From assembly GCF_032854445.1 (NCBI RefSeq), contig NC_088303.1, forward strand, positions 10,795,501-10,859,500: a stretch of 64,000 nt of DNA, written 5' to 3'. The notes beneath the pieces are model-generated. The model saw only the letters and a list, made by a program, of their open reading frames with translations. It was not told the DNA's origin and did not search any database. The DNA comes from Liolophura sinensis. Its lineage: Eukaryota > Mollusca > Polyplacophora > Chitonida > Chitonidae. Position 1 is the stretch's first letter. Every line of letters begins with the position of its first letter. Shown in pieces: positions 23,701-60,700 of the stretch. The position numbers were made by a program, and so were the translations under genes.

Positions 23701-26700
23701 CAAATAATAGACTGCCACAGACGTACATGTAGAGGTGTTTTCTTATGTACTGTTTGTATGTGATGAATTCCTTGTGGACGGTTGACTCGGGGTTTCTTGT
23801 TGATTTTGTTTCACTTTGCAATGAACACCATCTACATGTAAGTTTGATTTAGCATTGATTTGGATTCAACTTGCAATGAACACCATCTATGTTTGATTTA
23901 GCATTTATTTGGTTTCACTTTGTAATGAACACCATCTCAGTGTGATTTAGCATTGATTTGGTGTCACTTTACAATGCACACCCTCTTAGTTTGATGTAGC
24001 ATTGATTTGGCTTCACTTTGTGCTGAACGGTATCTCAGTTTAATTTAGTGATGATTTGGTTTCAGTTTGCGCTCAACATTGGGCTCAAGTTCTTCACTCC
24101 TGAGGAATATTTTCAAGGCTGGAAACCAGCGCCTTTCAAACTGCCAGAGTTTAATCCTGTAAGTGTTGATGCTGTTATACATGTGTACACTTTTTATGTC
24201 CCCTTGCCAGGATATGGGTGCAATATTTCCAAAGTTGTATTAAGTTGTTATCATTCATTTTTAGTATATCCCATTGCAAATGTAATGGGGGACATCTTTC
24301 TTTGTGCCTGTCCATGGATGTGTGTGTATGGGTGTCAGTTTGTTTAGCCCTTAGTGGGTTGATTGTGCTGTTTTGTGTATTTTTACATGAAGTTAGTAGG
24401 AGACGACTTGCCTTTCACCAATGTGTTACGTCAAGTGAAAGTGGCGATTACTTAGCACTCCTCAGGGAATGCACAGTAGTCAGAGCAGTAATCCTGGAAT
24501 TTTTGCACAATATGCTGTATACACTTAAAGTTTGCTGTGTAAAAAAAAAAAAAACACTTTCAGAAGCAAGAAGATCTTTTTTTTTTTTTTTTTTTTTTTT
24601 TTTTGATTGGTGTTTTACGCCGTACTCAAGAATATTTCACTTATACGACGGCGGCCAGCATTATGGTGGGCGGAAACCGGGCAGGGCCCGCGGGAAACCC
24701 GCGTCCATCCGCAGGTTGCTGAGTGACCTTCCCACATACGGCCGGAGAGGAAGCCAGCATGAGCTGGACTTGAACTCACTGCGATCGCATTGGTGAGAGA
24801 CTCCTGGGTCATTACGCTGCGCTAGCATGCTAACCAACTGAGCCACGGAGGCCCCAATTAAAGATCTTAAAATCTTACTTAAGATACTTTTTTTGATTGG
24901 AAATCAATCAAGTAAACCTCAGGAAGAACTCATAGTTGCCCTTTAAGGTGGATAAATGAATCAAAATTAAGCAAAATGTGTCGCTTGAAAAATGCTAAGC
25001 TTTAGTTACAATAGGATATGGTACAATTTCTTTATGATAGATGCCCTTTACCTTCTGTTGTATATACATGTAAGCGAGCAATTTTACTCAAATAAATTCA
25101 TGTGTGCTGGACATTTCCTCCTTCAGAATTCTCTGAGAGCTGATAATCCTCTGACGTCCCCTCCAGATGCCAAGATTATCTCCAAGAATCAAGAGGTGAG
25201 TCATGTGTAATCCTGAATTGATAAAGCTTGTGTCCATGGGTAATCCTACATTGATAAAGCTTGTGTCCTTGGGTAATCCTGAATTGATAAAGCTTGTGTC
25301 CATGGGTAATCCTGAATTGATAAAGCTCCTGTGTGGTGAAATCACCTGGAGTTTAACAGGTAGTAAATCGCCCAGCTGTTTGAACTGCAGCACTAAAAGG
25401 TGATTAGGCAGTGAAAAATGACGTGAAGTTCCATGTGAAATACTGTTGGTGAAAAATTATAAGAAGCTACCTTTGATTATCTCTTTGTACTACTTAAAAT
25501 CAAGTGTCTTATAAGATTTCCTTTCACATGTATCTGTCCAAATTTAAGTCCAATGTGAAGATTGTTGTTGTCTTTTTCCTCAACCAATGATAAGGCTTGG
25601 GTTAAAAATAAAATACATGGCTTTGGTTTGGAATATGTACGTTTATGTAACAGCTCTCTAATTTCGGATATTTGGAATATGAAAATGAATATGACTACCT
25701 GCAAGTTCGGCTTGTTGATGACTGACCATACATGTACAGTCTTTATTTGTTACAGGTTGTTATCACAGTTGGTTTTCCAGCTTGTAAGTAATCCAGTTAG
25801 CAAGTTTATGACATGAACTTTTTTGAATGAAACGAAATGTTTTTCGAAGAGGATATTTCTGATTGGAAATCATGAAATGATTTGGCAAAGAAATCACCAG
25901 AACAAGTAATCATTACCTGATAAACAGACTAATTTCCAGACACAAAAACCAAATACACATAAAGTATGTAACAATATAACCTTCACTGAAAATTTATAGG
26001 GTTATAGCCACATTGTGGTGTCTAGATTATGTCGTAGGTAGATTAAGGTGTATTCTCAAAGCCAGTGCTCATAGTTATACTGTGTACAAGTACAGTGAAG
26101 TATAGCTCCGTAAAAGAACGCTTTAGTTTGTTATAAATTGTATAAGTTGCTTAAATTATTGTACCGAATTTCATACTGATGTTCAAATGTTGAGATACCG
26201 TTTTCACACCTGCGCATAACACTTGAGATTCAGTGGCTAAAGAACTAAATAGTTGTCATGTTGTTTATGACAGTGCTTTGTCAAAGAGCACTGCTTTGTC
26301 AAACAGTCATGGGTCTATTAATCAGGAAGTAAAACATTGTGATTTTTACTTTTAGCAGGAAAATCATTTTTCGTGAAGACCTACATGGTGAAGGAGGGTT
26401 ACATTCATGTGAATAGAGTGAGTTCCCTGTTTTATAAACTTTAGTTTTATGTCAGTGTGAATGAGGAAGAGAGAACAAAGGTCAGTCATTTAATTGGAAG
26501 AGGTGTGGAAACAGTCCAAAACTGCCATAGCCATTTTGTTGCGTGCTTTTTTCAGCTATTAGTACCGGTGTGGAATTCCTATGAGACCTTGGGATATGCC
26601 ATGTTAGAGAATCTGGAAACGTGATGTGGCGTCATTTGTATCCCAAGCCCACACGGCTAAAGGCCGAAACAGGGTTCTGGTGACATCAGCGGAAACAGAT

Positions 26701-29302: not shown

Positions 29303-29329
29303 AAGCTTCCACGACTGGTGTGCTTTCAT

Positions 29330-29550
29330 TTCTAACTCTGGGAAATCTGCTGGGCAACTCAGCACATGGTGTTTCAGAGGATGGGAAATCTGCTGGGCAA
29401 CTCAGCACATGGTGTTTGTGGGTATGGGAAATCTGCTGGGCATCTCCACACACAGTGTTTCTGAGTGTGGGAAATGTACTGGGCAACTCCGCACACAGTG
29501 TTTCTGAGAGTGGGAAATCTGCTGGGCAACTCAGCACACGGCCTGAAGTA
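29330..29550. repeat. ~42-bp tandem repeat in the PNKP 3' UTR
   Basis: Five copies of a unit containing gggaaatctgctgggcaact and cagcacatggtgtttc. It begins about 28 bp after the stop codon. Confidence 0.93.
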
Positions 29551-29915
29551 ATAGTGTTATAGTACCACTCTGACTGCTGTGGGAACACTTGTGCTGTTAA
29601 TCGAGCTCAGCATTCTACACGAAATGGGACTCAGATATAGTCTTTGCTTGTCTCTATGCTGAATCTTGTGAGAATGGATTCTTTAAGTACATGTACTAAA
29701 TGTAATGAAGGATACAGCCTGTTAAGTTATTGAAAAGTCTTTGCTACAAGTCATTTCTCAAGTCCTCATAAGTCTTTATTTTTGACAGAAGGTGTTACTT
29801 AATTTAATTCTCACCAATGACAATCTGATAATTAAAACAACTTACTAATAAGCAAATAAGAATTGTTCTCTTCTTGTATCATTTAGGGGATCACTTATTT
29901 TGGTAACAAGAGAGT

Positions 29916-31195: not shown

Positions 31196-31213
31196 TGGAA
31201 GCGTTTTTGTTTA

Positions 31214-31219
31214 AATAAA
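31214..31219 (+). terminator. Poly(A) signal downstream of PNKP
   Basis: AATAAA directly after the 51-bp array, about 1.9 kb from the stop. A minus-strand AATAAA (TTTATT at 31231-31236) lies 12 bp away and could serve the convergent ZNF341 gene. Unused alternatives cannot be excluded. Confidence 0.4.
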
Positions 31220-31230
31220 ACAACTGTGTC

Positions 31231-31236
31231 TTTATT
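31231..31236 (-). terminator. Candidate poly(A) signal for ZNF341
   Basis: Minus-strand AATAAA about 1.76 kb past the ZNF341 stop. Another copy is at 31947-31952. Which one is used cannot be told from sequence. Confidence 0.3.
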
Positions 31237-31239
31237 TTT

Positions 31240-32505
31240 GCAATTTTTACACGCACACCCACCTCAAAACATAATTCAGAAGATCGATAATCCTGTGTAA
31301 TTTGTTTTCCCATGTTGTATGTATGACCCAATGTTAAGATTGGGACTGAGCACACCTTTCCATAAAGCGATGATATAGTGTCGCAAAGGGATCTCTCTCT
31401 GTTCTAACATTTATTACATTTATTTTGTATGTAATAAACGTACTCAGTTATGTGTGAATTCCCCATCCATCGTTTAAAGTTATTCTAATTCTTACTGAAT
31501 ACCTTACAATACATATAACCCACCCGCTCAACAAACCACAAGAACCTCAGCCACACCTAGTTGTTCAAATCCATGCATTTGCATCCCTGCAACTGCATCT
31601 GTATCATGCCTTGAAATGGTGCAAAATTGCTACAAAAAATCCTGGCTGACAACCAAAATGTATAGTGGGTCTGCACACTTTCATCAGTGGGTAAGTTTCA
31701 TCAAACCATGCGCTTAAGTTAATTTTGTAAAGTTGATGACAACCTAGACATTTGACTACAGTGGAAATGCCTTACAGATATCCTGGTTTCAGATCAACCA
31801 AAAAAATGGAATGGCACCAAATGTCCCCCAAATCCATCCAGAACTTTTTCTGATAAAATGAAAACCAACAAGAACATAACTTCCTTTGATAGAAATAATG
31901 AAAAGTATACATTAAGAAAAAACATTCCAATTTCAAGAAAAATAATTTATTCGTCAAATTATTCCTACCTTCCAACTTTAGAAAAATCAGTATCAAGTCA
32001 TTACTTTGTCAAAGTCTTCAGTACTGTAAATCAAAGACTGAATCATTCCACAGATCTACAATCCATTATTGCTGTCAAATTGACGCATACAGGTCACATG
32101 TTTATTATCGGATCCACACAGGAAAACACGAACACTATTGGCACTTGTATGGAGTATGTGGAGAGGTTAACATAGCCCACAAAAACATCACTTAAGACAT
32201 AAGTCAGTCTTTGAAAAGATACATGTGACTGCAACATGCATTTACAGGTGATAACGTGATCACCCTAGAGACGCTATTCACAGCTTATGCAACATACAGT
32301 AAAGGAGAATGTCACATCTTGCTCAGAGGGAAAGGTTTGTCAAAATGTTTCATGTTTTTATGGAACTACATGTATTGCTGTAAATGCACAAGAATTTCAA
32401 TCACAAAAATTTAATGTAAAAGTGTTATTTTGTGTAAAATTTAATAAGCCATTGTACATGTCTCGTCATCTGACAGACAGATTGAGGTTCAAAGAGATCA
32501 GATGC
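31240..32505. other. Intergenic or 3' UTR, no recognised gene
   Basis: AT-rich with no tandem array. A 105-codon plus-strand frame at 31858-32175 shows no recognisable domain. Probably the 3' UTR of ZNF341 on the opposite strand. Confidence 0.4.
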
Positions 32506-32511
32506 ATTTAT

Positions 32512-32700
32512 GTATTTATTTGATTGGTGTTTTACACCGTACTCAAGAATATTTCAATTATACAACAGTGGCCAGCATATTGGTGGGAGGAAACCAGACA
32601 GAACCCGGGGAAAAGCCACGACCATTCGTAGGCAGCTGGCAGACCTTCCCATGTACTGCTGGAGAGGGAGACAGCATGAGTTGGACTTGAGCTCCCAGAT
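32512..32700 (-). mobile_element. SINE, 5' truncated, first of a pair
   Basis: Reverse copy from the (TTTA)n-side tail through the body; the tRNA-like head is missing. A second copy in the same orientation follows within 8 bp. Confidence 0.85.
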
Positions 32701-32707
32701 CCGATAC

Positions 32708-32880
32708 ATTTATTTATTTATTTATTTGATTGGTGTTTTACGCCGTACTCAAGAATATTTCACTTATACGATGGCAGCCAGCATTATCGTGGGTGGAAAC
32801 TGGGCACAGCCTGGGGGAAACCCACGACCATCCGCAGGTTGTTGACAGACCTTCCCACTTACAGCTGGAGAGGAAGAGAT
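32708..32880 (-). mobile_element. SINE, 5' truncated, second of a pair
   Basis: Reverse copy with the tail tttatttatttatttatttg and gattggtgttttacgccgta. It ends at cagctggagaggaagag before the head. Lies just beyond the ZNF341 stop codon, in its 3' UTR. Confidence 0.88.
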
Positions 32881-32997
32881 CCAATACATGTACAATAGTA
32901 TAACACAAGACTACATTCCAACATGACAAGTTGAAACTTGCTCCTTTAAGGATTTGAGGGATGTTAACTTCAAAAAGACACGTCAGCTTCAAAATCT

Positions 32998-35900
32998 TCA
33001 CTGTTCCTCCATAGATCGCAGGATGTCCTCTGAGGCTTTCAGCAGACTTTCTGTGCCCTGCAGCACAGGGTCAGTCTCAGAGACGTAGTGCTGGATTTGT
33101 CTGCCCTGATGAGTCTCCAGGTCCCCATCCTCTGTGATCTCAGCCACACAGGTAACCATTTCCCCGGCCGCAGACCCCGGGGTAGCAAACACCACCTGAC
33201 GCCTCACCTGTACCCCGTCTACCCCAGGTGTGGGGTCCTCTACGATGAAGGTGTGCATGCCCTGAGAGTTGACGCCTGCAGGCATGTGCTCCTCTACTGT
33301 GATGTGCTGCTCCTCTGCAACCAAGTCTACCCCAGACGTATTTGACGAATTAGTGATCTCTATTTCCACCCCCTGCCCCTCTGAGGTGGAAACAACTTGT
33401 GCATTTGACAAATCCACCAGCTCCACTTGACCAATCACAGCAGGCTGCAGCAACTGCTGAGTTGCAGGGGAAATGATGGACTGGTGGGACATATTAGGGG
33501 AGATAACTGAGGGGGCTGACATGGTGACGATGGTGGACTCTGACTGATTAGCTTCATCCACAGAGCTGCCTCCTGTGATGTCACACGACTGCAGCTGCAC
33601 CACATAACCCGCTGAGGTAGTCAAATGAGGAGCTGCAGCAGTGCGAGTGAACTCCATCCCAGCAAAGGACACCTCCACAGTTGTGTCCTTGACCTGACCT
33701 TCATGCACCGCTGCTGTGTCTTGTGACTGTGACGTAACATGTGTATGTGTAGTGTCTGTTGACTGGTCACTGCTTGTCACCGTGACAACTCTCTGAGGCT
33801 GGGGAAACACAGGTTGTAGCTTTATCGTGTCAGTGGGAGAGGCTGTATTGTTGGGAGGAGCCACAGGTAACCCTGAAGATGGGCCAGAACTCAATGTGGC
33901 TAGAGGAGCTGAATCTCTAGATGAGGAAGCCACAGGTGGCTGCTCTGCTGGCGTCGCCTCTGTCTCCATGCCCAGCCTCTCCCCGCCTTCTCGCCGTGTG
34001 GGTCGGCCACGTCGACGAGTTATCATCGTGCTTGTTGACTTTTGACTATCAGCCGTCACAGTGATCATTCTTTTCCGTGGCCTCCCAATTTTCCGGCGAC
34101 TCCGCGCTCGGGGTGTGGGGACAATAAGCGTTCCGTCTTTGTCTGTTATAGGGTTACATTTATGTCCATGGAACAGCTTAGGCCTGAAAAAGCCTTTGCC
34201 ACATTTCTCACAGCGGAACCTGAAGTCTGACCGATGACTTCTCTCATGTTCCAGCAGGGAGGGTTTGCGACAGAAAGATTTGCCACACTCGCGACACTTG
34301 AAAGGTTTTATACCACTGTGGGAGATAATGTGAGCCTTCAACTTGTCGGGACGATTGAACTCCATCTCACAACCTGAACAAACAAAAGGTCTCTATTAAA
34401 CCCTCTCAATTCTATTAAGCTTTCAAAGACATTAATTAACACTTCAACATAGTAAAACATTTAAATGTACAAAAGTATCCCAAAGTTTTAACAAATATAA
34501 AGGTGCATTCATTCAATCTCTCAGCTTGGACCCATCATGAAAGGATTTCCACATCAATAACAAGCATACCTGATACCCTGTGTCTCAGCAGATTAAGAGG
34601 TAAATTAATGTGTTCAAAAAAGCTAATTAAGCTAATGAAATCAAACTAAATATGAATACGTGAATATAAATTTTCACCAAAAAGAAGTAGGTATACGGTC
34701 AATTAAGCTGACCACAATCCAATTTGGTCTAAGGTTCATTTTTCTAGGATAAACAATTCTGACAAGACTTTAACAGTAGAATTTAAACTTTGGTCTAATA
34801 AAAATGTAATTCAGTCTGGAGTACTTTATATATACAAGCAAGCCCATTTATGAAATTTGGTCCACTTGTTTTGGAGAAAATAAAGGGGCATAACTCAGTT
34901 CATTTTTGATTAGCTTTGAGATTAATTGGCCACATGTTCAGTTTTTATCCAACATCAACCCCTCTCTAGGAGATAACTGACTGATGAGACCAATGAAATA
35001 AAATTAATTTAATACAGTACAAAACTGGCCCTTGTACCATACAGAAGGTGTGTCCAGAATGGCTGGCAACACAAACACACCTGTAAGGCTTTTGAATGGA
35101 CATTTGTACTTCTTGACGGTGACATGGATCAGCATGTGCCGCTTAAGTTTGTCTTTCCTGTTGAAGGCAGCGTTGCACTGTTCACACTGGAAGGGTTTCG
35201 CACCAGAGTGGATCAGGGAATGCATCTTGAGATAATTTTCAGCCTTAAATCGCTTGAAGCACACCTGACACTCAAACTGACCTGAAAACATGTAAGTTAT
35301 CAGAATTACATGAAAGATTAGTTTTTCCTTGTTCTTAACATGAATTATTTCAACAGTGATATAGTGAACTTAAAAGCAATTTGTTAGTTTGGATTTTGGT
35401 CCAAGTGTCATGACACTTACAATGTTACTTTTTGACAAGTATGTCATAGCATGTTTTACTGATGGATGACACCAGACCATCTTGAATACACCAGTGAGAA
35501 ACTTTTCAACACATGACACATTTGCCTTCCCAATTCGTGGAAGAGGGGTCTTCAACGAACATAAAACATAAAAAAAAGCTTAGCTTACACTGCTGACAAT
35601 TTTCTGTCATAAAGCCCTTAGTTTTATTTATTTATTTGATTGGTGTTTTACACCATACTCAAGAATATTTCACTTATACGACGGCGGCCAGCATTATGGT
35701 GGGTGGAAACCGGCCACAGCCCGGGGCAAACCCACGACCATCCGCAGGTCGCTTACAGACCGTCCCACTTACGACTGGAGAGGAAGCCAGCATGAGATCA
35801 ACTTGAACTCACAGCGACCACATTGTTGAGAGGCTCCTTGGTCATTACGCTGCACTAACGCGCTAACCGACAGAGCCACGGAGGCCCCACCATAAAGCCC

Positions 35901-38900
35901 CGAGAATAATGAGAGCAGGGCAATCTAGAAATTCCCTCTTCAAGATGTCCCAGGACCGGACTGAACCTCCATGTACATGTGTACCTCATGAACCTTCATG
36001 TACATGTGTACCTCATGAACCTTCATGTACACATGTATACCTCATGTGCCAGCACCTGGGAGCTGCATGGCTAAGCAATGAGTCAGGTTTCATTCCCTGT
36101 CCAGTTAATATGCCTTTCTGGAAACCAACATGTACCATATAACAGCCCTCATTCACTGTTAGATTGTTACATGAACATACTACATGTGACTAGACATGGT
36201 ACTGCATGCCCATGGAATGATAGCCTAGAGGCGAGGGGATGATGAAGCAGGGGAACACCCAACATGAAACACCTTAGTGCTGGCTAACAGAGCAAAATGG
36301 ATACATGTAAGTGAACTGACCGACAGTGTGGCATGTGGCCTGATGTCTCCTGAGGTAGAACTCACAGGTAAACACGTTAATGCTGGCGAACAGGACAAAG
36401 TGTGTGAGTGAAGTGACCAACAGTGCAGTATGTGGACAGGTGTCCCCTGCGGTAGAACTCACAGGTAAACACCTTAACACTGGCTAACAAAACAAAATGT
36501 GTGAGTGAACTGACCGACAGTGCCATGAGTGGACAGGTGTCTCCTGAGGTATCGTTCACAGGTAAACACTTTCATACAGGTGGGGCACGGGTAGTGATGA
36601 GAGGCTGTGGACAGGTGATGGTCCAAAGCTTCAGGACTGGAATACTTGTTCAGACATTTCGTACACTGGTAATATCTGAAAGTAAATGTACATTGGTTAA
36701 GTAGAGACATATACCATTACACAACTGTCCACATGGGTCCCAGCTTTGAAACCCCCTTCATGTATCTCAATGATACCTTGTCCATATTCTGTACTGATCT
36801 TGTTTTAGTAATCCGATATTAGCACAGAAACCACAAATTTTCATCTGCATCACATAAACCTAATATTAATCCTATAACAGTAAAGATATGGCTTCCATCT
36901 TGTCCACAAGATTCTCTACCTGCCATGTTGACTGATTTTATCTCACGCATTATATTGCCATAAAATCTACATGCTTAATTTAAATGGTTCCAGTTGAAAT
37001 AGAAATGTCCTTATTTCATTTATCTGACTGGTGTTTTACGCCTTCCTCAAGAATATATCACTTATACGATGGCGGCCTTCATTATGGTGGGAAAAAAAGA
37101 GCAGAGCCTGGGAAAAACACACTACCATCTGCAGCTTGCTGCAGACCTTCCCATGTACAACTGGAGAGGAAGCAGACATGAGCTGGACTTGAAATCACAG
37201 CAACCACATTGGTGAGAGGCTCCTGGGTCATTACACAGCACCAGCATCCTTACCACCTTGCCCACGGACGCCCCAAAAAAGAAATGTAATTTAGTACATA
37301 ATATGCCCAGGTATGAAACTTGAAAACATTATTTGAAACAGTATATGAAACCTGGTGAAACACTGACCTTGGTGCAGAGAGCCTGGTTTGGCTGGGGTAG
37401 AGACTGTGGGAGTACTGGTGGACCCCTAGCTCATATAGGGACGGGAAGGTTTTATTACACAGGTGACATCTGTAAGACATGCCATCCTCGTGGGTCTTGA
37501 TGTGCTCTAAGAACATGTCCAGACTTTTGAACATGGAACCACATGTCTTCAGCACACATTTGTACACCTGTCAGACACAAAATTGTAATTAACTGTTCTG
37601 TGTGTTAGATCAGGGTCTCAATACCTGTATACCTGTAAGTCAGAAAAAGTTAGTAGCTATTCTGAATGTTAGATCAAAGATGAGAGGTTAGTTCTGGATG
37701 TTCCATCAAGGTCACACTCCCATCTGCAAGGTTTATCATTACCATTATCAAAATAGACAAACACTATTATAAATATATGTGAATAAAACTAAAAGTTCCT
37801 GTGACACAGTCCTCATTGTCCAGTTTCCCCCAAAAGAAAACATCATCTCAACATGTACACTGTGTATACTGTAATACACCTTGAAAACTCCAAATTTTCT
37901 CCTGTCCATGCCCTTGGTACATTACATAGGTTTACCACCATGCCAGTATCTAACGGGTGTGGAAAATACATGTACAAGAGCTGTCTAGTCTATGACACCA
38001 AAACATACATATGCTGTCTGTTTTAAAATAAGGTAAAATATCCTGGACAGTCAAACAATTGATGCAAACACAAATTCATGTTTGCTTCCTCAGCCTTACC
38101 TGTTCATCTTTGTGTAAGACCATATGTGACTTGAGCTGAAAGTAGGTTTTGAACTTCTCCGGGCAGTACTGACACAGGTAAGAGTTATCCACACTGACGT
38201 TCATCTGACCGTTAGCATCTGTTGTTGACCCAATATTCAACTACAAACAAGAAAAAAAAATCACATATATTTACCAGTTAGACTAGGTACCAAAATCTGC
38301 ATGTACATGTAGCAGGGTGACCGACTCCCTTATTGACAAACAGCTGACAATAGGTTTACCACAGGGAAGTAAATGCAGCTGTGCCTGGCATGACGGGCTG
38401 AGGTCTATGATATCACCTACCTCTGGTTATTTACTGATTGATATTACCTAATACTTAAACTGGTAACAAGATACAGAATGGCCTACTTCTGCATAATTAG
38501 TTGCATACACGTAGTTAGTTGATGCTATCTTTTTTTATTCGAGGCCCTAGGTTGCACGCGCACATTATGTGTGACACTGGTTGCAATTTGAGCATCTTCC
38601 CACGAAGCCACATCTCACTTCTCGTTATAGCTGGCTGAAGAAATATGATGGCTTGCACACTATATCATTCTCGGGGATATGACACACCTGCCTGAATAAA
38701 TTATCACTGACCACTTGACTGAAATATGTAACCCACCTCTCTAACTGGCTGTAGAACATGACTTACTTCCCTACCTTCATGCCGAACCTCTCTCTCTCAG
38801 GCTGTAGAACATGACTTCATACCTCCCTGCGATAGAGTATACTGTAGAACATAACTTACCTGTGTGACTGGCTGTTGAACATGACTTACCTCTCTGTTTG

Positions 38901-41900
38901 GGTGTAGAACATGACTTACCTCTGTGACTGACTGCAGAACATGACTTGCCTCTCTGTTTGGCTGTAGAACATGACTTACCTCTGTGACTGACTGTAAAAC
39001 ATGACTTGCCTCTCTGTTTGGCTGTAGAACATGACTTACCTCTGTGACTGACTGTAGAACACGACTTGCCTCTACAACTGGCTGTAGAACATAACTTACC
39101 TCAACAACAACGTTCATCTGACAGTTAGCATCTGTGGTTGATCCAATATTCATCTAGATGTGGGAAAACAAAAACATGTATTTATCAGCTCCCCAGTATG
39201 ACCTACTTCTGCATAATTAGGTTACACTTTGTTAATTCTTTCTTTTGTATTGGATTGCTGTTCAATGCCATACTAAAGAATTGATCACTTATTTGATGGC
39301 AGGCAATTTCATGTGTGGGGAAGCTGGAGTGCATGGGGAAAAACCATCGACCTTCGAAAAGATCATGTGAAGTACAGTATGACATCCTGGCTAAGTCATG
39401 TTCTGGCTGCAGAACATGACTTACCACTTTGACTGGCTGTAGAACATGACTGAAGTCTCTGTCAGGCTGCAAAACATGACTTACCTCTGTGACTGGCTGC
39501 AGAACATGACTTACCTTTGTGACTGTCTGTATAATATGACTTACACCTTTGACTTGCTGCAGAACATGACTTAGCTCTGTGAATGGCTGCAGAACATGAC
39601 TTACCCTTCTAAATGGCTGTAGAACATGACTATTAATACCTCTCTGACTGGCTGTAGAACCTCTCTGACTGGCTGTAAACATGACTTACCTGTCTGACTT
39701 ACTGAAGAAGATGACTTACCTCTATGACTGGCTAAAGAACATGACTTACCTGTCACGACTGTAGAACATTATTTACCAGGATGTAGAACATGACTGTTCT
39801 CTTCGACTGGCTGTAGAACATGACTTATCATTCTGATTGGCTGTAGAACATGACTTACCCTTCTGATTGGCTGTAGAACATGACTTATCTCTCTGTCTGG
39901 CTATCAGAAAACATGACCTACCACTCTGGTTGGTTGCAGGACATGACTTACCTCTATGACTGACTAAAGAACATGACTTACCCCTCTGACTGGCTGAAGA
40001 ACATGACTTACCCTTCTGAATGGCTCCAAAACATGACTTACCTTTGTGACTGTCTGCATAATATGACTTACCCCTCTGACTTGCTGCAGAACACGACTTA
40101 CCTCTGTGACTGGCTGTATAATATGACTTACATCTTTGACTGGCTGTAGAACATGACTGAAGTCTCTGTCAAGCTGCAAAACATGACTTACCTCTGTGAC
40201 TGAATGCAGAACATGGCTTACCTCTGTGACTGTCTGTATAATATGACTTACCTCTTTGACTTGCTGCAGAACACGACTTACCTCTGTGACTGGCTGTATA
40301 ATATGACTTACATCTTTGACTGGCTGTAGAACATGACTGAAGTCTCTGTCAAGCTGCAAAACATGACTTACCTCTGTGACTGAATGCAGAACATGGCTTA
40401 CCTCTGTGACTGTCTGTATAATATGACTTACCTCTTTGACTTGCTGCAGAACATGACTTACCTCTGTGACTGGCTGTAGAACATGACTGAAGTATATGTC
40501 AGGCTGCAGAACATGACTTAGCTCTGTGAATGGCTGCAGAACATGACTTACCCTTCTAACTGGCTGTAGAACATGACTATTAATACCTCTCTGATTGGCT
40601 GTAGAACACGACTTATCTCTCTGTGTGGCTATCAGAAAACATGACCTACCACTCTGGTTGGTTGCAGGACATCACTTACCTCTATGACTGACTAAAGAAC
40701 ATGACTTACCCCTCTGACTGGCTGAAGAACATGACTTACCTGTCACGACTGTAGAACATGATTTACCTCTCGGTTGGCTGTAGAACATGACCTACCACTC
40801 TGATTGGTTGCAGGACATGACTTACCGCTTTGACTGGCTGTGGTACATGACTTACCCCTTTGATTGGCTGAAGAACATGACTTACCCTTCTGATTGACTG
40901 TAAAACATGACTTTTCTCTCTGTCTGGCTATCAGAAAACATGACCTACCCTTCTGACTGGCTGTACAACAACTTACTTCTCTGACTGGCTGAAGGCTATG
41001 GTCAGGCTCCTGTCCATCACCTGCCATAGTGCTGTTACACTGTGTAATCCCTGACTCTATGTCCTCCACTAACTCTACCAGCTTTGTAGGTTTAGGTAGG
41101 GTAGAGGCGGTTCCTGCTGGCCACACCTAGTGGATGAAAAAAGGTTCAGATATTCAAGATATTGGTACAAGATCTTAAATGTATAAAAATACATCAAATT
41201 ATAGTTTTTTTAAGGCCTCAGCGGTCAGTCCAGAAATTAAGTGCCTCGCAGTAGTGATGTCAATGATGATCTCTCTTAAAAAGAATTCGGGGACCTCCGT
41301 GGCTCAGTTGGTTAGCGCTAGCACAGCCTAATGACCCAGAAGCCTCTCACCAATGTGGTCGCTGTGAGTTCAAGTCCAGCTCATGCTGGCTTCCTCTCCA
41401 GCTGTAAGTGGGAAGGTCTGGCTAAGCCGGCCAGGCAAACCCACACAGTGTCTGAGTATGTTATTGTCTAAACTGTACATACATGTATATATGGCTAGTA
41501 GCCGGCTGACAACAAATCAGGTGCAGTGTATATAAGTGAACAGAGACCAACATAAATTTACACAATATGGAAGACGTCATTGAGTATACAAAAGTATAAG
41601 TTCCAAGCAAAAAAAATCTAAGACCATTTAATGGAGGTGTTTGACAGTGACAGTTCAGAGTATTTTGATTTGGTCTTTTGGGGGAAAGTCAGAGTGCTTC
41701 ATTTTCCTTGTTCATTCTGTGGAAATGTCACATCACATGGAAATCTGAAGAAGCTGAAGCTTAGATAGCTTTTTTTTTGGAAAAAGCTAAAACTGACGCA
41801 ACTAACTATATCTGAACATAGAGAAATATCCATGAATGAATGCGTTGTTTGCTTTAAGAAAATCCTACTGAGAAACAAAATAGGTCCGACTGATCAGTTA

Positions 41901-44056: not shown

Positions 44057-47000
44057 TGTTTGTTTTATTAGAGTTTTTATTTAATTTTTTTTCTTCTTTT
44101 TTTTCCAACTTATTTTTTTATTATCTTTTCTTCATGAGTGAGGGAGTCCAGAGTGCAAAAAAGACTGCCTTATGCCAGGTACCAAACAAAGCTCTTGACT
44201 TCAACCCACGTTCAAAGCAGCAAAAGCAGCAGGAGCATGGCCTAATAATATTTTAAAGGTTGATAATATTTTTATCACAACCTTGTTAACATATTACAAC
44301 ACTTTTTATTTGCCAGTAAAGTTAACATCATTATGACTTGGTAATAACTGTGTCATGTTGTTCTGTTTTGTGTGCGATGCATTAAATGACAGGTTATATG
44401 TGATCAGAAGTATTCTTGCAATTGTATAATTTGTTCAAAACATAAAATCACTTTTTTTGGAAACATCAGCGTGACAATGCTTGCAAAATAAGGGGAGATA
44501 ACCCATTGGCATTTTAGGTAAAACATTGATACAGCAGATTTACATAAAACAAATATTATTTTAGTACACTCACAAGAAAAGCTACTACATTACATTTATG
44601 TATGTCACAGGGACAGAAGAATGTAGATCACAACAATCACTTTGCTTGTGATGAAGGCTTTGCAACAACCTGCCATGGTTGTTGCATGGTGGTGGTAAAG
44701 GCTGTGGGGTTTGGCACTAACCTGTCATGGTTACTGTATGGTGGTGGTAAAGGCTGTGGGGTTTGGCACTAACCTGTCATGATTATTGTATTGTGGTGGT
44801 AAAGGCTGTGGGGTTTGACACTAACCTGTCATGGTTATTGTATGGTGGTGGTAAAGGCTGTGGGGTTGACACTAACCTGCTGTGGTTATTGTATGGTGGT
44901 GTTAAAGGCTGTGGGGTTGACACTAACCTGGTTATTGTATGGTGGTGGTGGGGTTGACATTAAAACCTGTTGTGGTTGTTATATGGTGGTAAAGGCCATG
45001 GGGTCCGGCACTAACCTGTCTTTGTTGTTGTATGGTGGTGGTAAAGGCTGTGGGGTTGGTACTGACAACAGTCTGCTGAGGCACAGGTCTCAGGGTGGCT
45101 GGTGGAGTACAGCGCCCTTGTTTGTGAGAAATGAAGGACGGCAGAGAGGTAAACTGCTTCTTGCACTTCCCACACTGGAACAGGTCTTCTTCTTCTGCTA
45201 CAAGATGAGGTCAGGAAAACAGTTACTACCTTACCACATATGACACCATATTGCTCTAACACTCTTCCAAGGGAGAGAATCTTTTCCATCTTTTCAAATA
45301 TAATAGACAAACTTTCAGTGCAATTTATGTACATTTGTAATCGGTGGTGATGGATTGGCCAGTTTCAGGGCTTCAAAAAAATAAAATTTTATCAATCAAC
45401 ACAGATTAATGCCTTCAGAATATGCTTGAACAATTACCGTAGATAACTTAAAAATCCCAATTTCTTTATTTATTTATTTATTTACTTGATTGGTGTTTTA
45501 CGCTGTACTCAAGAATATTTCACTTATATGACGGCGACAAGCATTATGGTGGGAGGAAACCGGGCAGAGCCCAGGGGAAACCCACGACCATCTGCAAGGT
45601 TGCTGGACTTGAACTCACAGCGACCGCATTGGTGAGAGACTCCTGGGTCATTACGCTGCGCTAGCGCGCTAACTGACTGAGCCACGGAGGCTCCAAAATC
45701 CAAATTTCCCTTAAAATCAGCTGAAATACACTGTTGAGCTGACCCTGCACTCCAGACAGTATATGTGATGAAATATCTGAGCGACAAACCAAAACCTGAC
45801 TGGAGAGCAGAACTACCCGGTGGTAAGGAATACAACATGTAAAAATCTGAAAGATTTTTCAATAAATGAACTCAATAACTCTAAATTGCTGAATTTATAA
45901 AAACTCAATCCTATCTAAACCCACATTCACTAATTCTGATTTGTTGCATTCACTTAACAATTGCAACAAACTGCACTATGTCAAAAATTTGGCAGACTTT
46001 TATCAAGTTAACAAATTTGTAACATTTTACTTACAGTTACATGTAGGAAAATATTTACCCTCGATGACCTGAAATTTGACCATGACTAAGTTGTTCATTT
46101 TTCCGGATTCTGGGAGTTCTACTGATTTTAGAAAGGTGCTCTGAGAGGAGTTTGTCAGGTAGGATGATATCATACTAGGAAAATGAAAATTTTAGCAGTG
46201 GTCAGAAGTAATATCTCATGACATATTTTCCTCCAAAAATGCTTTTATGTGGGCAAATTTTTTGAAGTATTTCACATTTTCTATGGCTTATGGGCTAAAA
46301 ATTTACAAATGGTTCAAAAAACCTGTACAACTTACCTTGTTGGGTCGCCTCGGCCACATTTTGTGAGTCAAGAAGGGACTGAACCACAAGAGCTGCCTGG
46401 TTATCCACTGACACTCCCCCTGTAAGATTTCCACTATAAACAATTAGCCCTGCCTGACAACCAGTGTAGGGTTTATGGATACTCGGACAGAGCAATACCA
46501 GCTTTTCTGTTACCCCACATGGATCAATCTTTACCTGGCCTCCATTCTGGCTCAAGTCTTCATCCTTTAATGTACATGTAGTATTAGGACATTAAACAAG
46601 GCCAGCAAAATGGCACTCAAATGAGAAATTAACCCGACTGTTGTTGTTCATGTGTAAGTAAGAAAATGTTGAGAATGACATAAATAAATATTACAGCAAT
46701 CCGAGTTAAGGGTGGAGGACAACCTCCACTATGCCATTTTGAAAACCCTCCAGACTAAATACTGAAGACTAAACAAAAAAAAAAAAACAACAAAAAAACA
46801 TGGAAACCTACATGTATGTGTAGCCTAATTAAGTAGGCCTACCTATACACAAATGAATAAAAAAAAACAGACACAGTAAGTATGTCACTGGTTCCATGAA
46901 GATTTGGTTCACATCAAGTGCATGCAGGAATATTTACTACCCTAAAGATCCAAACAATGCTTTTTATCTGTCAGTGACATATACCCGCCGTGTGGCTTCA

Positions 47001-47712: not shown

Positions 47713-47758
47713 ATTTTCAGAAACTTTTGACTTCTTCTCAACCGGGGAACAGCGGCGG

Positions 47759-47766
47759 TGACGTCA
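47759..47766 (-). promoter_or_regulatory. CRE-like palindrome at the ZNF341 promoter
   Basis: Perfect TGACGTCA 47 bp upstream of the ZNF341 start codon, the classic CREB/ATF site, often near CpG-type start sites. Function is inferred from position. Confidence 0.45.
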
Positions 47767-50309: not shown

Positions 50310-50500
50310 ATTTGGTGACTAACGCCGTACTGAAATCTTATTCCACGCAGGTCAGGTTCATGGGTGGAAGGAACCGACTGGATAAACCACAGCAGCGCCA
50401 GATACACCTTACAAAACACCAGATGTAAGGCCTTATAGCCGTACCTGCCGGATGGGGATTCGAACTCCAAGCCTGATTGGTCAGGGTCTACAGTCATCTT
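50310..50500 (-). mobile_element. Divergent tRNA-like SINE
   Basis: On the minus strand a B-box-like gagttcgaatcccc follows ctgaccaatcaggctt. On the plus strand the far end has gactaacgccgtactgaaat. A different or highly diverged SINE family. Confidence 0.4.
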
Positions 50501-51721: not shown

Positions 51722-54700
51722 ATGGATCGCCTGCGGCAGAAGTTTCGGCAGGTAAGTATCATGTAATCTGAGCGATGACTTTAGCTCACGCGAGTCCTCA
51801 ATCTGGTGATTTGAAAAAAATTTTGAACATTTGCTTTCTGTTGAGCGTGCAATATATACCAATGAGATTTCTTCCACTTGGAAATCGATGAACTGGGATA
51901 TAAACGTGAAACAAAACAGTTAACATAAAATTAGTACCATGACTTTCCTTGCAGCATAATCAAGGCATATCTTTAAGAGTAAGAAAACCCAATATTTTAA
52001 TTTATACAGAATGAAATCTTAGCCGTCACGTTAAGTGCATAGGACCAAAGGCATGAAGGCTGTTCTACCTTGCAACACTTTCCCACCGATTGTGTCACAC
52101 TTATAGGGTCAATGGGAGAAAAGTAGTTAGCTCAGTCTGCTATCTGCATGGTTTTTAAAATTTTGATTTTTGAATATGTGTTATGAATATCATTATGGGA
52201 TTTTGCGTATTGTGATACTGCAGAAAGAAACCTGATATCTGTCTATTGGTACGTGTTGGTTTACAATGACAAATTCTTACTTGGCATGTAAGTATGCTTA
52301 TATTTCGAGGAATTGTGACCGATTGGACCACTTTTTAGCTCATATCCACCAATACGGTCAGTGGGACAGCTCATACCACGTGAATTATACAGTGATTGAA
52401 CTTAGATCACATTGCAAGAATATCCAAGAATACATGCAATTTAAAAATGTTATGAATTTGAGGCTTCATATTCATTTTTTTCTGCCAATCAGTGGTTGGT
52501 TTAACGTTCGAGCTAGGATCAGTCATCCTCCGTAGGTATATCAGACCGTGACAACCCATTTGGTCACTGGCTATCCACCGTAGGTATATCAGGCCGTGGT
52601 CATTTTGGTCACTGGTCATGCGCCGTAGGTATATCACACCGTGACAGTCCATTTGATCACTGGTCATCCACCGTAAGTGTATCAGACCGTGGCAATCCAT
52701 TTGGTCACTGGTCATCCGCCGTAGGCATATCAGACCGTGACAACCCATTTGGTCACTGGCTATCCACCGTAGGTATATCAGACGGTGGTCACTTTTGGTC
52801 ACTGGTCATGCACCGTAGGTATATCACACCGTGACAATCCATTTGATCACTGGTCATCCACCGTAAGTGTATCAGACCGTGGCAATCCATTTGATCACTG
52901 GTCATCCGCCGTAGGCATATCAGACCGTGACAACCCATTTGGTCACTGGCTATCCACCGTAGGTATATCAGACCGTGGTCACTTTTGATCACTGGTCATG
53001 CGCCGTAAGTATATCACACCGTGACAATCCATTTGATCACTGGTCATCCACCGTAAGTGTATCAGACCGTGGCAATCCATTTGATCACTGGTCATGCGCC
53101 GTAAGTATATCAGACCGTGCATGGCAATCAGTTTAGTCACTGGTCATCTGGCGTCTGTACATCACATCCTGGCAATCCATTTGTATACAATGTATTCCGA
53201 GCAAAAGACTGATGTGTTTACAAACCCACATCATTTCGTATTTTCAACAAACTTTTGACAGATAAGTAATTGTGGTTAAGTTGATATTCTTAGCATAGCT
53301 TGTGTCCGTTACAGAGAATGAGATGGTGACCAATGAAAATAGAGATATTTATTTATTCATTTGTTATTTATTTGGGGTTTTACGTCGTACTCAAGAATAT
53401 TTCACCTATATATGACGGCGGTCATTACAGTCGGAGGAAACCGGGCAAAGCCTATATGGAAACCCACGACCATTCGCAGGTTACTGGTAGACATGCCCAC
53501 CTACGGCCGGAAAGGAAGCCGGCATGAGCTAAACTTGAACTCACAGCAACCAAATTGATGAGGAGCTACTGTGTTACTGCACAACGCTAGAACCCTGACC
53601 ACTGGGCCATGCACGGTGGCCCACTCAACAGAGATATTTATTTACTTGTTTGATTGATGGTCTACACCGTACTGAAGAATATTTCACTTATAATACGGCA
53701 GCCAGCATTATGTTGAGAGGAAACCCACGACCTTCCGCAGGTTGGCGGCCTTCCCGAGTGTGGCCAGAGAGAAAGCTAGCATGAGCTGGACTTGATCTCA
53801 TAGCGACAGCATTGGTAAGAGGCGCCGGGGTCATTGCACTGTGTTGTCACGCTATTTTACCCTATTGTTCTTATTTATTTATTTATTTATTTGATTGATG
53901 TTTTACGCCGTACTCCAGAATATTTCACTTATACGACGGCGGCCAGCATTATGGAGGGTGGAAAGCCCGGGGGAATCCCACGACCCACGTACGGCCGTAT
54001 TGTTAGTTGCGGGCCGTGAGCAAATATACATATTAAATGAGCTTTCAAACAATATCGAGTGTGTCATGCAACATGCCGGTTGGTACGTTTACCTCCCCGG
54101 GTAATATGATTTCATACTGCTTATGTCTACAAATAAAATAATTTAAGTTTGTTTATTTGTTAGATTTGCTTTTGTGATATATATAAAGGTGAACTGTTGA
54201 AATTTCCTTCAGCGATTAAAGTGATCTTTCGCACAGTTTATATTTCTCGCTTCTGTGTTCACATTTTTGATAGTTTACATCCAGACGCCATGACGTGGAA
54301 AAAGAATTTTTTGTTCCATAACGTTTCAGTCTGAGCTCTATGGTATGAGATTCTTAAGTACGACGTATAACCCCAAGCACTCACTCACTCACTCATTCAC
54401 TCACTCACACTACGGTATGACGTCATAATACATGTGCAGTGCAGTTTTACAATCGGTACTCGGTACGAAACAAGTTTCAGTGGTATCGGGTGACACAACA
54501 AACAAGGCTACGACTTTGTTAAACCCCTTATTCTACCCCGCTGTTAGCTGTTGGCCGTGTGCATATATGCATATTAAATTGAGATGACTTTTCAAACAAC
54601 ATCGAGTGTTTCACGCAACCAACCTGCCGGTACGTTTACCTCCCCGAGTATTATGATTTCATTCTGTTCATGACCACAAATAAATGAATTTGAGTTTGTT

Positions 54701-57700
54701 CACTTGTTAGAGTTACTTCCTGATTTATATATAGGTGGACTATCGGAATTTCTTTCAGTAATAAATGTGTTCTTTTGCACAGTTTATAGATATCGCTTTT
54801 AATTTCACATAGACCTATTTCGTATTTCACAGACGCCATGACGTTAAAAAAGAAACAAGACGTTCCAATTGGAGCTTAACGGTATGACATCATAATGTAT
54901 CTACTGTGAACTTTTACATTTCTACGTCACGCAACAATAAGAAACGACATCATACATACACAATTTGACATATCTAGGTTAACTGCTGTGACCTAAACTG
55001 GCCGTTGATTGGTCTAAAATGCGTGACCTATGAGGATTGAGTAAAACAGAATGGCAGCATGAAGAATGCAGTTTTTGCTACATTTTCTTCATTTTTTGGG
55101 GAAGAATTAGACTTTGTCAAATCCCTTGAATGCTGCGCATTCTTGGGATTTGACTCGGCACGAAACAAGACTCAGTGGTATCGGGTTGCACAACAAGCAC
55201 CACTACGGCGGTATTGAACCCTTAAACCACCTCCAAATTCTCCGAATGTATTGGCCTCAAATGTCAGGGTATGTTTTTCAATCAGACAGGTGTATAAAAC
55301 TGAGGAGCAAACTCATATTTACATTTGTCTCATCGACAGGTTACTGGTAGACATAACGGCAAGGTCGTGCCCGAGGGCACTAGCCAGACCCAGCAGAGGT
55401 TAGAGAGGGGCAATTGGGGAAATAAACTGGAGTTTATTCTGACGTGCGTGGGTTATTCTGTGGGACTTGGCAATGTTTGGAGATTTCCATATCTTGCATT
55501 CAAGAATGGTGGCGGTAAGTAATGTAGGTATATGTGGTATATTTGAGCATATCCAAGCTATACTGGACCCTGTATTCTGCGTAGCAACATTTGCAAGTCT
55601 CTGGGGCTTTTTCAGCTACTCTGACAAGAATAATGCTGGGTATGCTCTGAGCTAATATATCTGTGGATATTTGCGCGAGAAGTTTAAAGTAGAAATAATG
55701 ACAAGACAAAAATCTCATGTCCATCTAAAGTTTGCAAGGATTTCACGAATCGTTCGTGTACACCTGGTTTCAGGGACCTTCCTCATTCCCTACTGGATTA
55801 AGCTGCTGTTTTTGGGCATGCCTCTATTCTTCTTGTTTCAGGGGCCTTCCTCATTCCTTACTGGATCATGCAGCTGTTTGTGGGCATGCCTTTATTCTTT
55901 TTAGAATTGTCGTTTGGACAGTTTGCAAGTCTTGGGCCTCTTACAATCTGGAGGATAAGCCCGGTCTGCAAAGGTAGGCCGGTTCCTCTCTTTAACATGT
56001 TGCCATTGTCCAGTTTATCAATTAAATGAAATTAATGAAGTGATGGACCAAAAAGTTACACTGGGGCAAAATTTAAAATGGCTAGCCGGGATATCAAGGC
56101 TATGTTTTGGAAAAGTGATTTCAGACTGTAAAATCACACCAAGAGAGCTAATCGCCTTAAAACAATATATATGAACTTATGTTTATGTCGATATACTTGT
56201 AACTGGATGGACATTCACTTTTGAATAATGGTCTGTAAGCTTACCGGGCGAAGAACAGCTGTTTCCTCCATGTAAGCTGGTTTCCTCCATGCACCCGTGT
56301 TGAGAGTTACACAACAAACACCACTACGGCGGTGTTAAACCCTAAATAGAATAATGGTCTATAAGCTTACTTGGTGAAGAACAGCTGTTTACTACCAGCA
56401 CGCTGGTTTCCTCCCTGTACGCTGGTTTCCTACATGTACACTGGTTCCTTCCATGCAGCCTTGTTGGGAGTGACAATTCTTGAGTCCGGTTTTAAACAAC
56501 AATGAAATAAAATAATTTTTTCCGCCTTGATTATAAACAGTCGCTTTCATACTTCATCTGATGTGTCAGCTAAAGTCTTTGTTTACTTCTAACAATTGCA
56601 TGCATTGTTGTCGTTTTGTTATTGCAGGAATCGGATTCAGTATGGTGATAACGCTGGCGCTGGTGGCCACTTATTACAACGTCATCATCGGGTACTGCTT
56701 CTTCTACTTCTTCGCGTCGATGACAGACCGGTTGCCGTGGGCCCACTGTGACAACGTCTGGAACAGTCCAAACTGTGTGGTGGGAAACGAAACTCTGGCT
56801 TCGGGTATGTTCCCACGACTACACTTACTGCACTTTAGCATTTCTAATATGGAATAGACAACGGCTGGTTGCAGCTTTAGGTCAGAAAGGTCGTCTCATT
56901 TTCCGCGAAATTATATTTATTTTATTTATTTGATTGTTGCATAACGTCAATATGTGCGGGTCGTGACCGAATGGTTCAAGTGCCTTACTTTGAATTGCTT
57001 GAGAACACAAAATATAACCTATGACAGGGAACTAAAGTTAAACTTTGGAGTAAAATTTGCACCGAGGCTAACACAATTTCACTACATCGTTCTTTTAATA
57101 TTATAATTTTCTTATGCAAAACGCCATTAAATATTCTTTTGAATGCATTGGGTGTTTTTGGGACAATTCTCTATAAAATGTTAAAACCTGTATCCGAGTC
57201 ATATATTGCGTGAGTCTGACATAGTCTGGCTTCGATCTACACGCAGTGGACTGAGGTGGTGATTAACTATTTTGTGAAATGGACAATCTTATTAATAGCA
57301 TGTACAGTTGTTTCTGTCTTCTTGCAATGACATCCTAGTCATTGTGTCGACAGACGAAATCATCAAATCACTATTTCACGCATAACTGAGTCAATATCCT
57401 GTTCGACAATAGATAATCCTTTCTACGCAATTAATGTACACTGCCCGTGCATATAAACTGTGTTTAAGTCGGGCAAATTCCAAATTAACATGCACTGAAC
57501 ATGTGCTACCATATTTTGACTTTACTCAAAACACGTTTATGAGTTTAAGTCTGTGAAGTACTACTGAAGAACAACGCTGTAAACAAACCCGAGACTCTTC
57601 ACGCCACTGTATTTGATTTGTCCTGATTTATGATAATAGTAGAAATTATGGTGTCATAAGTTACTTTTAGTTTGCATACAGTACAAATGTAGGCCCATAC

Positions 57701-60700
57701 CCCTTTAATACGAAGATGTACCCAGCTCTGCCTTTAATGCTGAGTCAAGGTGAGTTTATTGGGAATGGGCACACCAGGGTTGACGACCTCTCTGACTTAC
57801 CTTAGTATCGCTAGAACCGCTCTCGGTTGAGTAGGTGCAGTGCTATTTATATGCTATATACACAATTAAGTAATGATTTACAGTGGTTTGCTCTCTAGTG
57901 GTGTAAATAATGGACATTCATATTCAGTTCCCATGTACAAATACCGGTAAATACTGAAGTTCATTAAAGCTTTCCACTCGTTTAGAAGACAAAGAGGGAA
58001 TGAAACGTTCATCAAGAAGGTATCCTTGTTTTTCCACGAGATTCCGTGATGAGAGCTCCATTTAAATTTATCGATAAGCAACTATTATTTCACATTATTA
58101 ACATTTTTCTCTTACCAGTTCCAAAATACAGAATGAAAAAGAATGCTTCTTTTGATTTCTGTTGGCATTTAGCAGTATGTTGGCCCAACTTGTAATAATA
58201 CTGCATTTGGAGCGATTTACAGACATAACTTATTGATATATTTGATTGATGCTTTACCCCGTACTCAAGAATATTTAACTTATTCGATGGTGGCTTGCAT
58301 TATAATAGGAGAAAATGAGGAAACCCACGACTTTTGGTAGGTTGTCACCAGACTTACGACCATGCAATGAGGAAGCCCGCAAGACCTGGACTTGAACTCC
58401 CAACGACCACATAGGGACCTGATATAGGCATATCTCAAATGAATTTAGTTAATTTAGTGATTATGATCTGGAGTTCCCATAGGTCGACTCTGACTGCTGT
58501 CTGTTTCTTTCCATTGTACCAATAAACATGTGTACATGTCGATCGAGTTACACCGTGGCTATGTGTATACATCAGTCGTCCTTGTATTTACTGTTCGTAC
58601 ACTATCCTCCATGAATCCGTTAATTGTTTATTCCTTTAATTTCCTATTCCGGGTTTTCAAAAGGTGAACAGGCCATATCCTCAAGCGAAGATTTCTTCAC
58701 GTGAGTAGATCCTGTTCATAGGTGTGAAATACGTGTAACAGATCACGACGCTTTCGTATCGTTATAAAGGGAACTGAGGAAGAAGTACTTCCCGTTTCAT
58801 CGTCTGCTGATGACAACTATATATCAATTACTTGGACACACCCTCCATAATAAAGTTAATGATAACACCTTTCTTATATCACCCTAAACTTGTTCGAGAA
58901 ATTCTACAGCCCGACTTAAGTGCAATATTTTGAGGAAGCCCCAGTGTATTCTTCATGTTAATTATTATTCCCCTTTCCCAGAATCTATACCGTTATTTAT
59001 TTAATTATTTATTTATTTATTTATTTTATACTCAAGAATATGTTACTTATTAGTCCTCCAATTTGTCTGATATTGTTGACAGTGCCTAATGAGACAAATC
59101 ATCTCAAAAAGCCAAGCTACGGAACTTTTCATTAAAAAGTTTTCATTCATTGCATTAAGGAAACGAGCTAAAAGAAAACTGTTCTATGTCACGTACGTGG
59201 TTTGGCGGCCATATTGGATGCACCTGTATATCGTTTTCTAGAGCTAAGAATGTTTATCTGAAATTAATATACTGCCAGAACAAGTACAGCTGGGTGCAGT
59301 GTGTACAAACAGAGTTTATATCTTGAAAATTGTGGAAATTTACTGGTTACTAAATTTGTCACGTGAGCAAAAATATTTGAATATAATAAGCACGTTATCT
59401 CGCATATTTTGCCATCTTGATCACGGGTCTGGTCGTTTTTCCTGCGAAGTATACATACATTGAAACTTGCGATCCGAGATCTGAGCAGGTGTATTTTTTC
59501 TGATATTCTCCAGTCACAGCCCTGAAAACAGGGCTGTATATTTATTGTGTAAGTGTTTGAAACATAAAACCACGGCTCCTTTAAATCTGCAATCAATGAA
59601 ACTGTATTCTGCTATGTTTACTTAGCTTTAAAAATCGCTTAATTGGTTCAGTAACCATAAAGCAGACAGAGCTTTAAACTTGAGCTACATGATGGAATGC
59701 ATGTCTAAAATTTTTTTTTTCATGTTTTTTTTTTTCTTTTAACTGAAGTGGTGTATAGGTAGCCTAATTTCCCAAATCACCTTGTTGGGGCGCGGGGGTG
59801 GGGGTGGGGGGGGGGAGGAGAGCTGATATCCCTCCGAAACGCACAAATTTCCCACTTTTGAAAATTAGTAAGTTATTATATTTCTGTTCGTTGTGGAGGT
59901 GCATAGGATAAGATTGTAATTTCTCCTTGTTAAAAGCAATGTAACTTTTAAGGCAACATTGGATGACAGCACTTTGCAAATGGCAGTTGTAGATGAGCAG
60001 GTTACTTTGAGCCGTTCTAAGCCACATGTTATAATCTGCCATTACCTGTACCATACAGTCGGTATGTACTGGACCAGTCTCCGACCATTGACGAGATTGG
60101 CACACCTCGATGGCAGCTTGTTCTCTGTCTGATGCTGGCCTGGACTGTCGTCTTTGTCGTCCTTGTTAGGGGAATCAAATCACTAGGGAAGGTGAGTACA
60201 TTTGGGCTGTCAGATGTGGTATGCGCATGTTAACATTGAACATCCCTTGGTAAGGTGAGTACCTTGGAGCTAACACGAGTGGTATGTTCATGTTAACATT
60301 GAACATCCTCTGGTAAGGTGAGTACCCTTGAGCTGTCAGGAGTGGTATATTCATGTTAAAATTGAACATCCTTTAGGAAGGTGAGTACCTTTGGGTTGCC
60401 AGGTGTGGTACACTGATGTGAAAATTGGACACTTCTCTAATAATAGCCAGTATGACGTTTGATGCTCAAATCATTTTATGCAACAAGACAAGACGAAAGT
60501 ACTTTTCATATGTGTATTTTGCGCCAAGTGCTTTGAACATAAGAGGATATCCTAATGACTGGTCCGCACTCCCAATACGGTGTATTGTGGGCATATAGCG
60601 TTCCCATGAAGCAGCACTATCGAAATTATGTAAGCCGGTTGTGGCCACGCGCGTTTTCTTACTCCCCACCTAAAAATATGGTTTACAACATTCTGCATTC

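Follow-up and report, generated by a model that had tools for sequence, protein, structure and literature searches.

Repeat arrays and gene structure in the window

The window (the whole 64-kb stretch of DNA analysed here) sits on a 37.3-Mb contig of the 609-Mb genome of the chiton Liolophura sinensis and carries the genes for PNKP, ZNF341 and a transporter of the SLC6 family. Six tandem repeat arrays in these genes each hold a splice junction, four of them a 5' splice site (donor) and two a 3' splice site (acceptor). In the hand-built models PNKP lies on the plus strand with 16 exons and ZNF341 on the minus strand with 12. A protein search gave 588 of 588 amino acids identical between the PNKP model and the NCBI protein PNKP-like isoform X2 (bifunctional polynucleotide phosphatase/kinase-like) of Liolophura sinensis, and the ZNF341 model differs from NCBI ZNF341-like isoform X2 (1,066 amino acids) by one residue, at a CAGCAG acceptor. 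Both NCBI models employ the exon-proximal copies of the splice sites. The SLC6 gene, on the plus strand, extends beyond the window end, with more exons in region L031; its family assignment is based on four matches to Pfam SNF found within the window, and its putative splice junctions are deduced from reading frame and splice signals.

The arrays were delimited with Tandem Repeats Finder (TRF) and placed on these models. At the donors the exon end and the donor lie in the first unit, and the remaining units are intronic. Three such arrays are on the minus strand in ZNF341. The 97-bp array at the exon 10 donor (36306..36569, 2.7 copies, exon end 36515) has a unit formed from the last 55 nucleotides of exon 10, the donor and 42 nucleotides of intron, which is repeated downstream. 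The exon 7 donor (exon end 40977) belongs to a 30-bp array of 53 units (39403..40991). The 52-bp array at the exon 3 donor (44667..45057) begins with a unit formed from the last 48 nucleotides of exon 3 and the donor (exon end 45016). The fourth, a 63-bp array of 3.9 copies on the plus strand (60186..60431), lies at a putative SLC6 donor (exon end 60191), and the donor AAGGTGAGT is kept in 4 of 4 units.

At the acceptors it is the last unit that contains the acceptor and the exon start. PNKP intron 8 holds a 49-bp array of 5.4 copies (23800..24070, plus strand), whose last unit includes the acceptor of exon 9 and extends 5 bases into that exon (exon start 24066). In the SLC6 gene an acceptor and exon start are contained in a 68-bp duplication (55767..55899, plus strand, 2.0 copies), for which 55842 is the probable true exon start; the frame opened by the upstream copy of the acceptor is closed by a stop codon shortly past 55901.

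The first-pass annotation, made from the letters of the window, had listed these six arrays with periods of 49, 97, 30, 51/52, 68 and 63 bp. TRF and the models bear this out at the same places (49, 97, 30, 52, 68 and 63 bp), and the exon numbers given for ZNF341 (3, 7 and 10) and PNKP (9) likewise agree with the models. Two further cases had been overlooked: a 33-bp array of 3.8 copies (25202..25327, plus strand), which begins 7 nucleotides past the end of PNKP exon 10 (25195) and leaves the donor itself outside the unit, and an array at a copied exon in ZNF341 intron 7 (38842..39102, described below). A single mobile repeat inserted at junctions is not seen, in agreement with the annotation: from gene to gene the units have different periods and sequences. 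The ZNF341 30-bp array, the one array searched genome-wide, has at least one weak match elsewhere in the genome (71% identity over 131 bp, at C10:3262633-3262763).

Most units of the donor arrays still contain a donor-like site. With a donor score of at least 6, sites were found in 39 of 53 units of the 30-bp array, 2 of 3 of the 97-bp array, 4 of 4 of the 52-bp array (counted per 104 bp) and 4 of 4 of the 63-bp array. The 30-bp array has no antisense donor site scoring as high as 6.15. One ZNF341 acceptor was first set wrongly at 46564 and was corrected to 46419 for the final exon model; this antisense scan, the junction-overlap count and the coverage profile used the wrong position, which is also one of the 32 sites in the acceptor matrix used throughout.

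ZNF341 intron 7 contains, in addition to its array, a copied piece of the following exon. The end of exon 7 (40977) lies within the 53-unit array, whose 30-bp unit bears GGTAAGT. Downstream of this array a segmental copy covers 38150-39420 on the minus strand; it includes the start of exon 8 and the acceptor region before it, where 66 of 81 bases are identical, and a second intron piece copied alongside (38 of 47 bases match). By sequence comparison the exonic part is a 54-nucleotide partial copy of the exon 8 start (39100..39153, minus strand), which is in frame, free of stops and encodes 18 amino acids. It directly borders a second 30-bp array of 8.7 copies (38842..39102, minus strand), which has a unit related to that of the exon 7 array and begins at the donor of the copy. 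The acceptor of the copy is weak (score 2.9); the donor, which belongs to the second array, is strong (11.6). The 54-nucleotide copy is absent from NCBI ZNF341 isoform X2, the one isoform compared. The arrangement makes this copy a candidate for a potential new in-frame exon.

Frequency of arrays at donors and acceptors in other genes

Merging of the window arrays with a period of at least 10 leaves 25, of which six span a junction, one abuts a junction and one adjoins the exon copy; the remaining 17 lie at no known junction. The density of arrays is 0.39/kb in the window and 0.44/kb in the first myosin sample, a general abundance of about 0.4/kb that the first-pass annotation had left unconsidered. 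As the genome is this rich in minisatellites, a sample of myosin and dynein regions was tested against chance.

Twenty-nine extra gene regions (14 myosin, 15 dynein) were located by Pfam family rows only. Clustered myosin and dynein Pfam places were taken, except for three clusters of dynein and a number of places for myosin. The window genes were chosen because of the pattern; the 29 outside regions were not. Exons were defined as frames conserved among paralogues (99 myosin, 85 dynein), and splice sites were placed by means of a matrix derived from the genes of the window, those with a net score above 3 being kept (151 donors and 149 acceptors); these sites are homology-inferred, and single ones may err by a few bases (for example in dynein d3). 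Exon copies within arrays were dropped before the count (seven in myosin g6, two in myosin g4, one in dynein d8), and the copy joined to the full exon was kept. A donor was counted when the first unit of an array spans it, and an acceptor when the last unit does, in comparison with positions drawn at random from the non-coding parts of these genes, which may include undetected exons.

Donors lie in the first unit of an array more often than expected. This holds for the window genes (4 of 37 donors where chance would give 0.80, P=0.007) and for the outside regions, where 6 of 85 myosin donors (1.5 expected) and 3 of 66 dynein donors (0.8 expected) give 9/151 against 2.3 when pooled (P=0.0007). 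With the window genes included the count is 13/188 against 3.0 expected (P=0.0003), and the excess persists under three other TRF settings. It is also seen with GT dinucleotides of the same introns as controls: the outside donors remain at 9/151 against 2.7 expected (P=0.0014), or 3.8 expected if sites deep within arrays are excluded (P=0.014), and for all 188 donors the corresponding expectations are 3.7 and 5.0. Acceptors show no excess in the window genes (2/36 against 1.03 expected, P=0.28), in the 29 outside regions (3/149 against 2.9) or in both together (5/185 against 3.9). The annotation had proposed a shared process at exon borders and a test for enrichment of arrays at junctions. Run on the 29-region sample, this test upholds the proposal modestly, and for donors alone, since acceptors are without excess.

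Examples are also found beyond the window. In a myosin gene the exon end and donor are present in eight copies (C3:25740948-25741938). One C12 myosin gene has four junction-spanning arrays; the first unit includes the donor in three of them, with periods of 66, 31 and 61 bp. Arrays at dynein donors were found on C9, C12 and C6. The pattern might still be a local coincidence of three genes in one window, meaningless beyond it, given that the window was picked for the pattern and its counts are small (4/37 donors). Its recurrence in the 29 regions, which were selected by Pfam family only and include evident examples like the eight-copy myosin exon end, makes a purely local coincidence unlikely as long as the homology-inferred junctions are not grossly in error, and we consider it very improbable.

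The majority of arrays are located away from junctions, and a plain coverage test at junctions would have misled. When cover by any array is counted, the non-coding background is the higher: 14 of 188 donors are covered against 30 expected, and 5 of 185 acceptors against 24. Such cover below background indicates that exons repel arrays, as purifying selection would give. On the donor side of the myosin sample, repeat coverage is 8.6% at bases 1-10 and rises to 19-22% beyond 250 bases; window donors go in the opposite direction (14% against 10%).

Other duplications were seen in the sampled genes. In the myosin gene at C1:26636501-26651500 (L012, L013) single exons are paired or tripled, as in mutually exclusive splicing, and in dynein region L049 one exon occurs twice, ~670 bp apart (at about 1682 and 2350).

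The window and the SLC6 gene also hold repeats of other kinds. A tRNA pseudouridine synthase-like exon (PF01416 match at 186-437) is followed on its 3' side by a 48-bp (16-amino-acid) repeat at 1943-2366 in an open frame, which is probably coding, and a 23-bp array of 30 copies (1044-1750) stops ~36 nucleotides upstream of the putative acceptor of this frame. An SLC6 intron contains a CACC-rich repetitive stretch of ~2.4 kb with long repetitive open frames (L031, ~bases 700-3150). Pieces of a dispersed element, which we take to be similar to a short interspersed element (SINE), lie at 24580-24870, 32500-32890, 35630-35890, 45480-45700 and 53400-53990 of the window; a blastn search with these five pieces gave matches in all 13 myosin gene regions compared.

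Relation to lancelet mirages and to intron gain

Minisatellite-like tandem repeats that lie over 5' or 3' splice boundaries have been described in lancelets as ‘mirages’ (PMC3087553, PMC3902484). The passages of these two papers that describe them name the Branchiostoma genes Adh3, the globins BflGb6 and BflGb9, troponin C and PGBD5, give units of 10 to ~160 bp that keep AG/GT signals in many cases, not all, and report that regular splicing is undisturbed. The chiton arrays share this anatomy, being minisatellite-like repeats that span a boundary with splice signals in many units. Their units overlap true exon/intron boundaries, those of PNKP and ZNF341 agreeing with the NCBI proteins, and several units per array retain the splice signal, as the per-unit count of donors scoring 6 or more demonstrates. 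They differ from the lancelet cases as described in those passages in that the host is a mollusc, several unrelated gene families are involved, one array reaches 53 units, and an excess has been measured for donors and is absent for acceptors in the chiton sample. Among the matches listed for mirages in this sense in the open-licence PMC literature, only PMC3087553 and PMC3902484 use the term, both for lancelets and none for a mollusc. We take the chiton arrays to belong to the mirage kind, what is new being the first estimate of their frequency and the donor bias.

A second comparison is with intron gain by tandem duplication of AG/GT segments, where duplication of a border can likewise supply new splice sites. 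It has been proposed for lancelet globins, in the relevant part of PMC3087553, that introns are born in this way; the chiton introns would then have come from their arrays, which would be scars of that birth. The segmental copy in ZNF341 intron 7 would give rise to one additional exon and one additional intron, and this exon copy fits the lancelet model in which a mirage is the source of a recruited exon (PMC3087553, in the legend to Figure 7). However, the units of the 13 donor arrays hold exon end together with intron sequence, being 7 to 93% exonic, and the 18 chiton arrays whose first or last unit spans a junction (13 at donors, 5 at acceptors) differ from intron gain in keeping their copies within an intron. 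An origin of the introns from the arrays is accordingly regarded as exceedingly unlikely, and intron gain in the chiton arrays has gone no further than an incipient stage, and that in a single case.

The arrays may also be compared with the dual-specific splice sites of human UBC and VCX3A, where each repeat unit similarly bears an AGGT signal (PMC10809524). In the part of that paper concerned with these genes, the sites act as both donor and acceptor, and those of UBC delimit coding repeats. The chiton repeats, in contrast, are mainly intronic, and splicing at their copied sites is putative.

Origin and persistence of the donor arrays

We consider it probable that the chiton mirages result from an indiscriminate birth of minisatellites, the donor copies being tolerated and mostly passengers. 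A duplication would fall at a random place in a minisatellite-prone genome. Where a donor is duplicated, the 5'-most donor would stay in use, the copies would become intron, and the array could grow intronwards freely; the selected exonic anchor may in addition keep donor arrays recognisable for longer. Where an acceptor is duplicated, the copy would lie upstream and be met first, and such arrays would more often be harmful. Competition from the copied acceptor upstream may thus be the reason that acceptor arrays are fewer. The extra donors would be mostly silent, although an array may occasionally provide a newly formed exon with its donor; ZNF341 intron 7 is suggestive of this. The 13 donor arrays agree with this proposal in two respects: the exonic content of the first units varies in a manner compatible with a uniform distribution (Kolmogorov–Smirnov P 0.22-0.59), and the periods are not biased towards multiples of 3 (4 of 13 arrays). 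Both fit random end points of duplication.

Several observations weigh against indiscriminate birth with tolerance. Donors exceed the neutral rate about 4-fold in comparison with random positions, and tolerance alone allows at most the neutral rate; an extra factor is thus needed, whether a mutational bias, a better persistence or slower decay of exon-anchored arrays, or a benefit. With GT-matched positions as controls the excess is still 2.3- to 3.6-fold. The difference between donors and acceptors (13/188 against 5/185) is by itself not significant (Fisher P=0.09), and the conservation of donor columns is somewhat higher than the average of the unit. Other results weaken the claim of a donor excess itself: it is smaller with GT-matched than with random positions, the donor-acceptor difference just given falls short of significance, donor-like GT sites off junctions also exceed random in first units, on both strands, and when non-junction arrays are compared with shuffled units, donor-like sites of score 6 number 15 against 10.9 in sense (P=0.12) and 16 against 10.7 in antisense (P=0.045).

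The mutational factor could be a process targeted to junctions, in which donors, or transcription or splicing there, actively promote tandem duplication. The excess of outside donors over both sets of GT-matched positions given above is what such a process would produce, and in the myosin and window genes the bin of the last 30 exon bases holds 7 left edges of arrays, against ~2 per intron bin. The comparison with donor-like sites elsewhere is less favourable. At a score of at least 6 the share of sites in a first unit is 7.0% for true donors, 3.5% for sense sites, 5.8% for antisense sites and 2.0% for random positions; true donors differ from sense sites (P=0.045), not from antisense sites (P=0.36). 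At a score of at least 8 the P values are 0.28 (sense) and 0.13 (antisense), and at 10 or more 0.60 and 0.45, from few sites. The break points are scattered over the unit and do not coincide with the donor, and there is no evident excess of arrays just within the intron without the donor. The R-loops that the first-pass annotation had offered as a cause gain no support from strand skew, as the GC skew is 0.09 in donor arrays and 0.08 in other arrays (P=0.80). Duplication driven by the junction itself is considered unlikely.

Alternatively, arrays with extra donors might be kept by selection, multiple U1 binding sites securing recognition of the exon. Selection for extra splice sites was also among the causes first suggested, and the evidence on it is divided. 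The conservation percentile of the donor 9-mer has a mean of 0.70 over the 13 arrays (z 2.4), or 0.67 with the first unit excluded (z 2.1), and the 9-mer is better conserved than the whole unit in the SLC6 63-bp array (1.00 against 0.88) and the ZNF341 52-bp array (1.00 against 0.89). The longest of the arrays, with 53 units, shows no such difference (0.853 against 0.853), and pooled mismatches, at 88 of 1,026 against 418 of 5,792, reveal no constraint (P=0.14). Nor are the donors that bear arrays weak, with a mean score of 9.6 against 8.4 (P=0.11), so that a rescue of weak donors by arrays is unsupported. Retention for the sake of U1 binding thus appears improbable, and tolerated passengers of indiscriminate minisatellite birth remain the preferred explanation of the donor copies.

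A broader proposal is that true 5' splice sites in chitons, and perhaps in lophotrochozoans, are preferred starting points of tandem duplication, by a process linked to transcription or splicing, and that the arrays form a standing reservoir of new exons and introns, with ZNF341 intron 7 as a case in progress; this we regard as doubtful. The lancelet reports, in the passages of PMC3087553 and PMC3902484 noted above, concern single genes, and in the chiton about 1 in 14 of the sampled donors (13/188) lies in such an array. This frequency, together with the donor excess over a position-matched null, makes three questions testable, namely whether splice sites act as hot spots of mutation, how the spliceosome handles dozens of strong decoy donors, and whether arrays are a source of new exons and introns.

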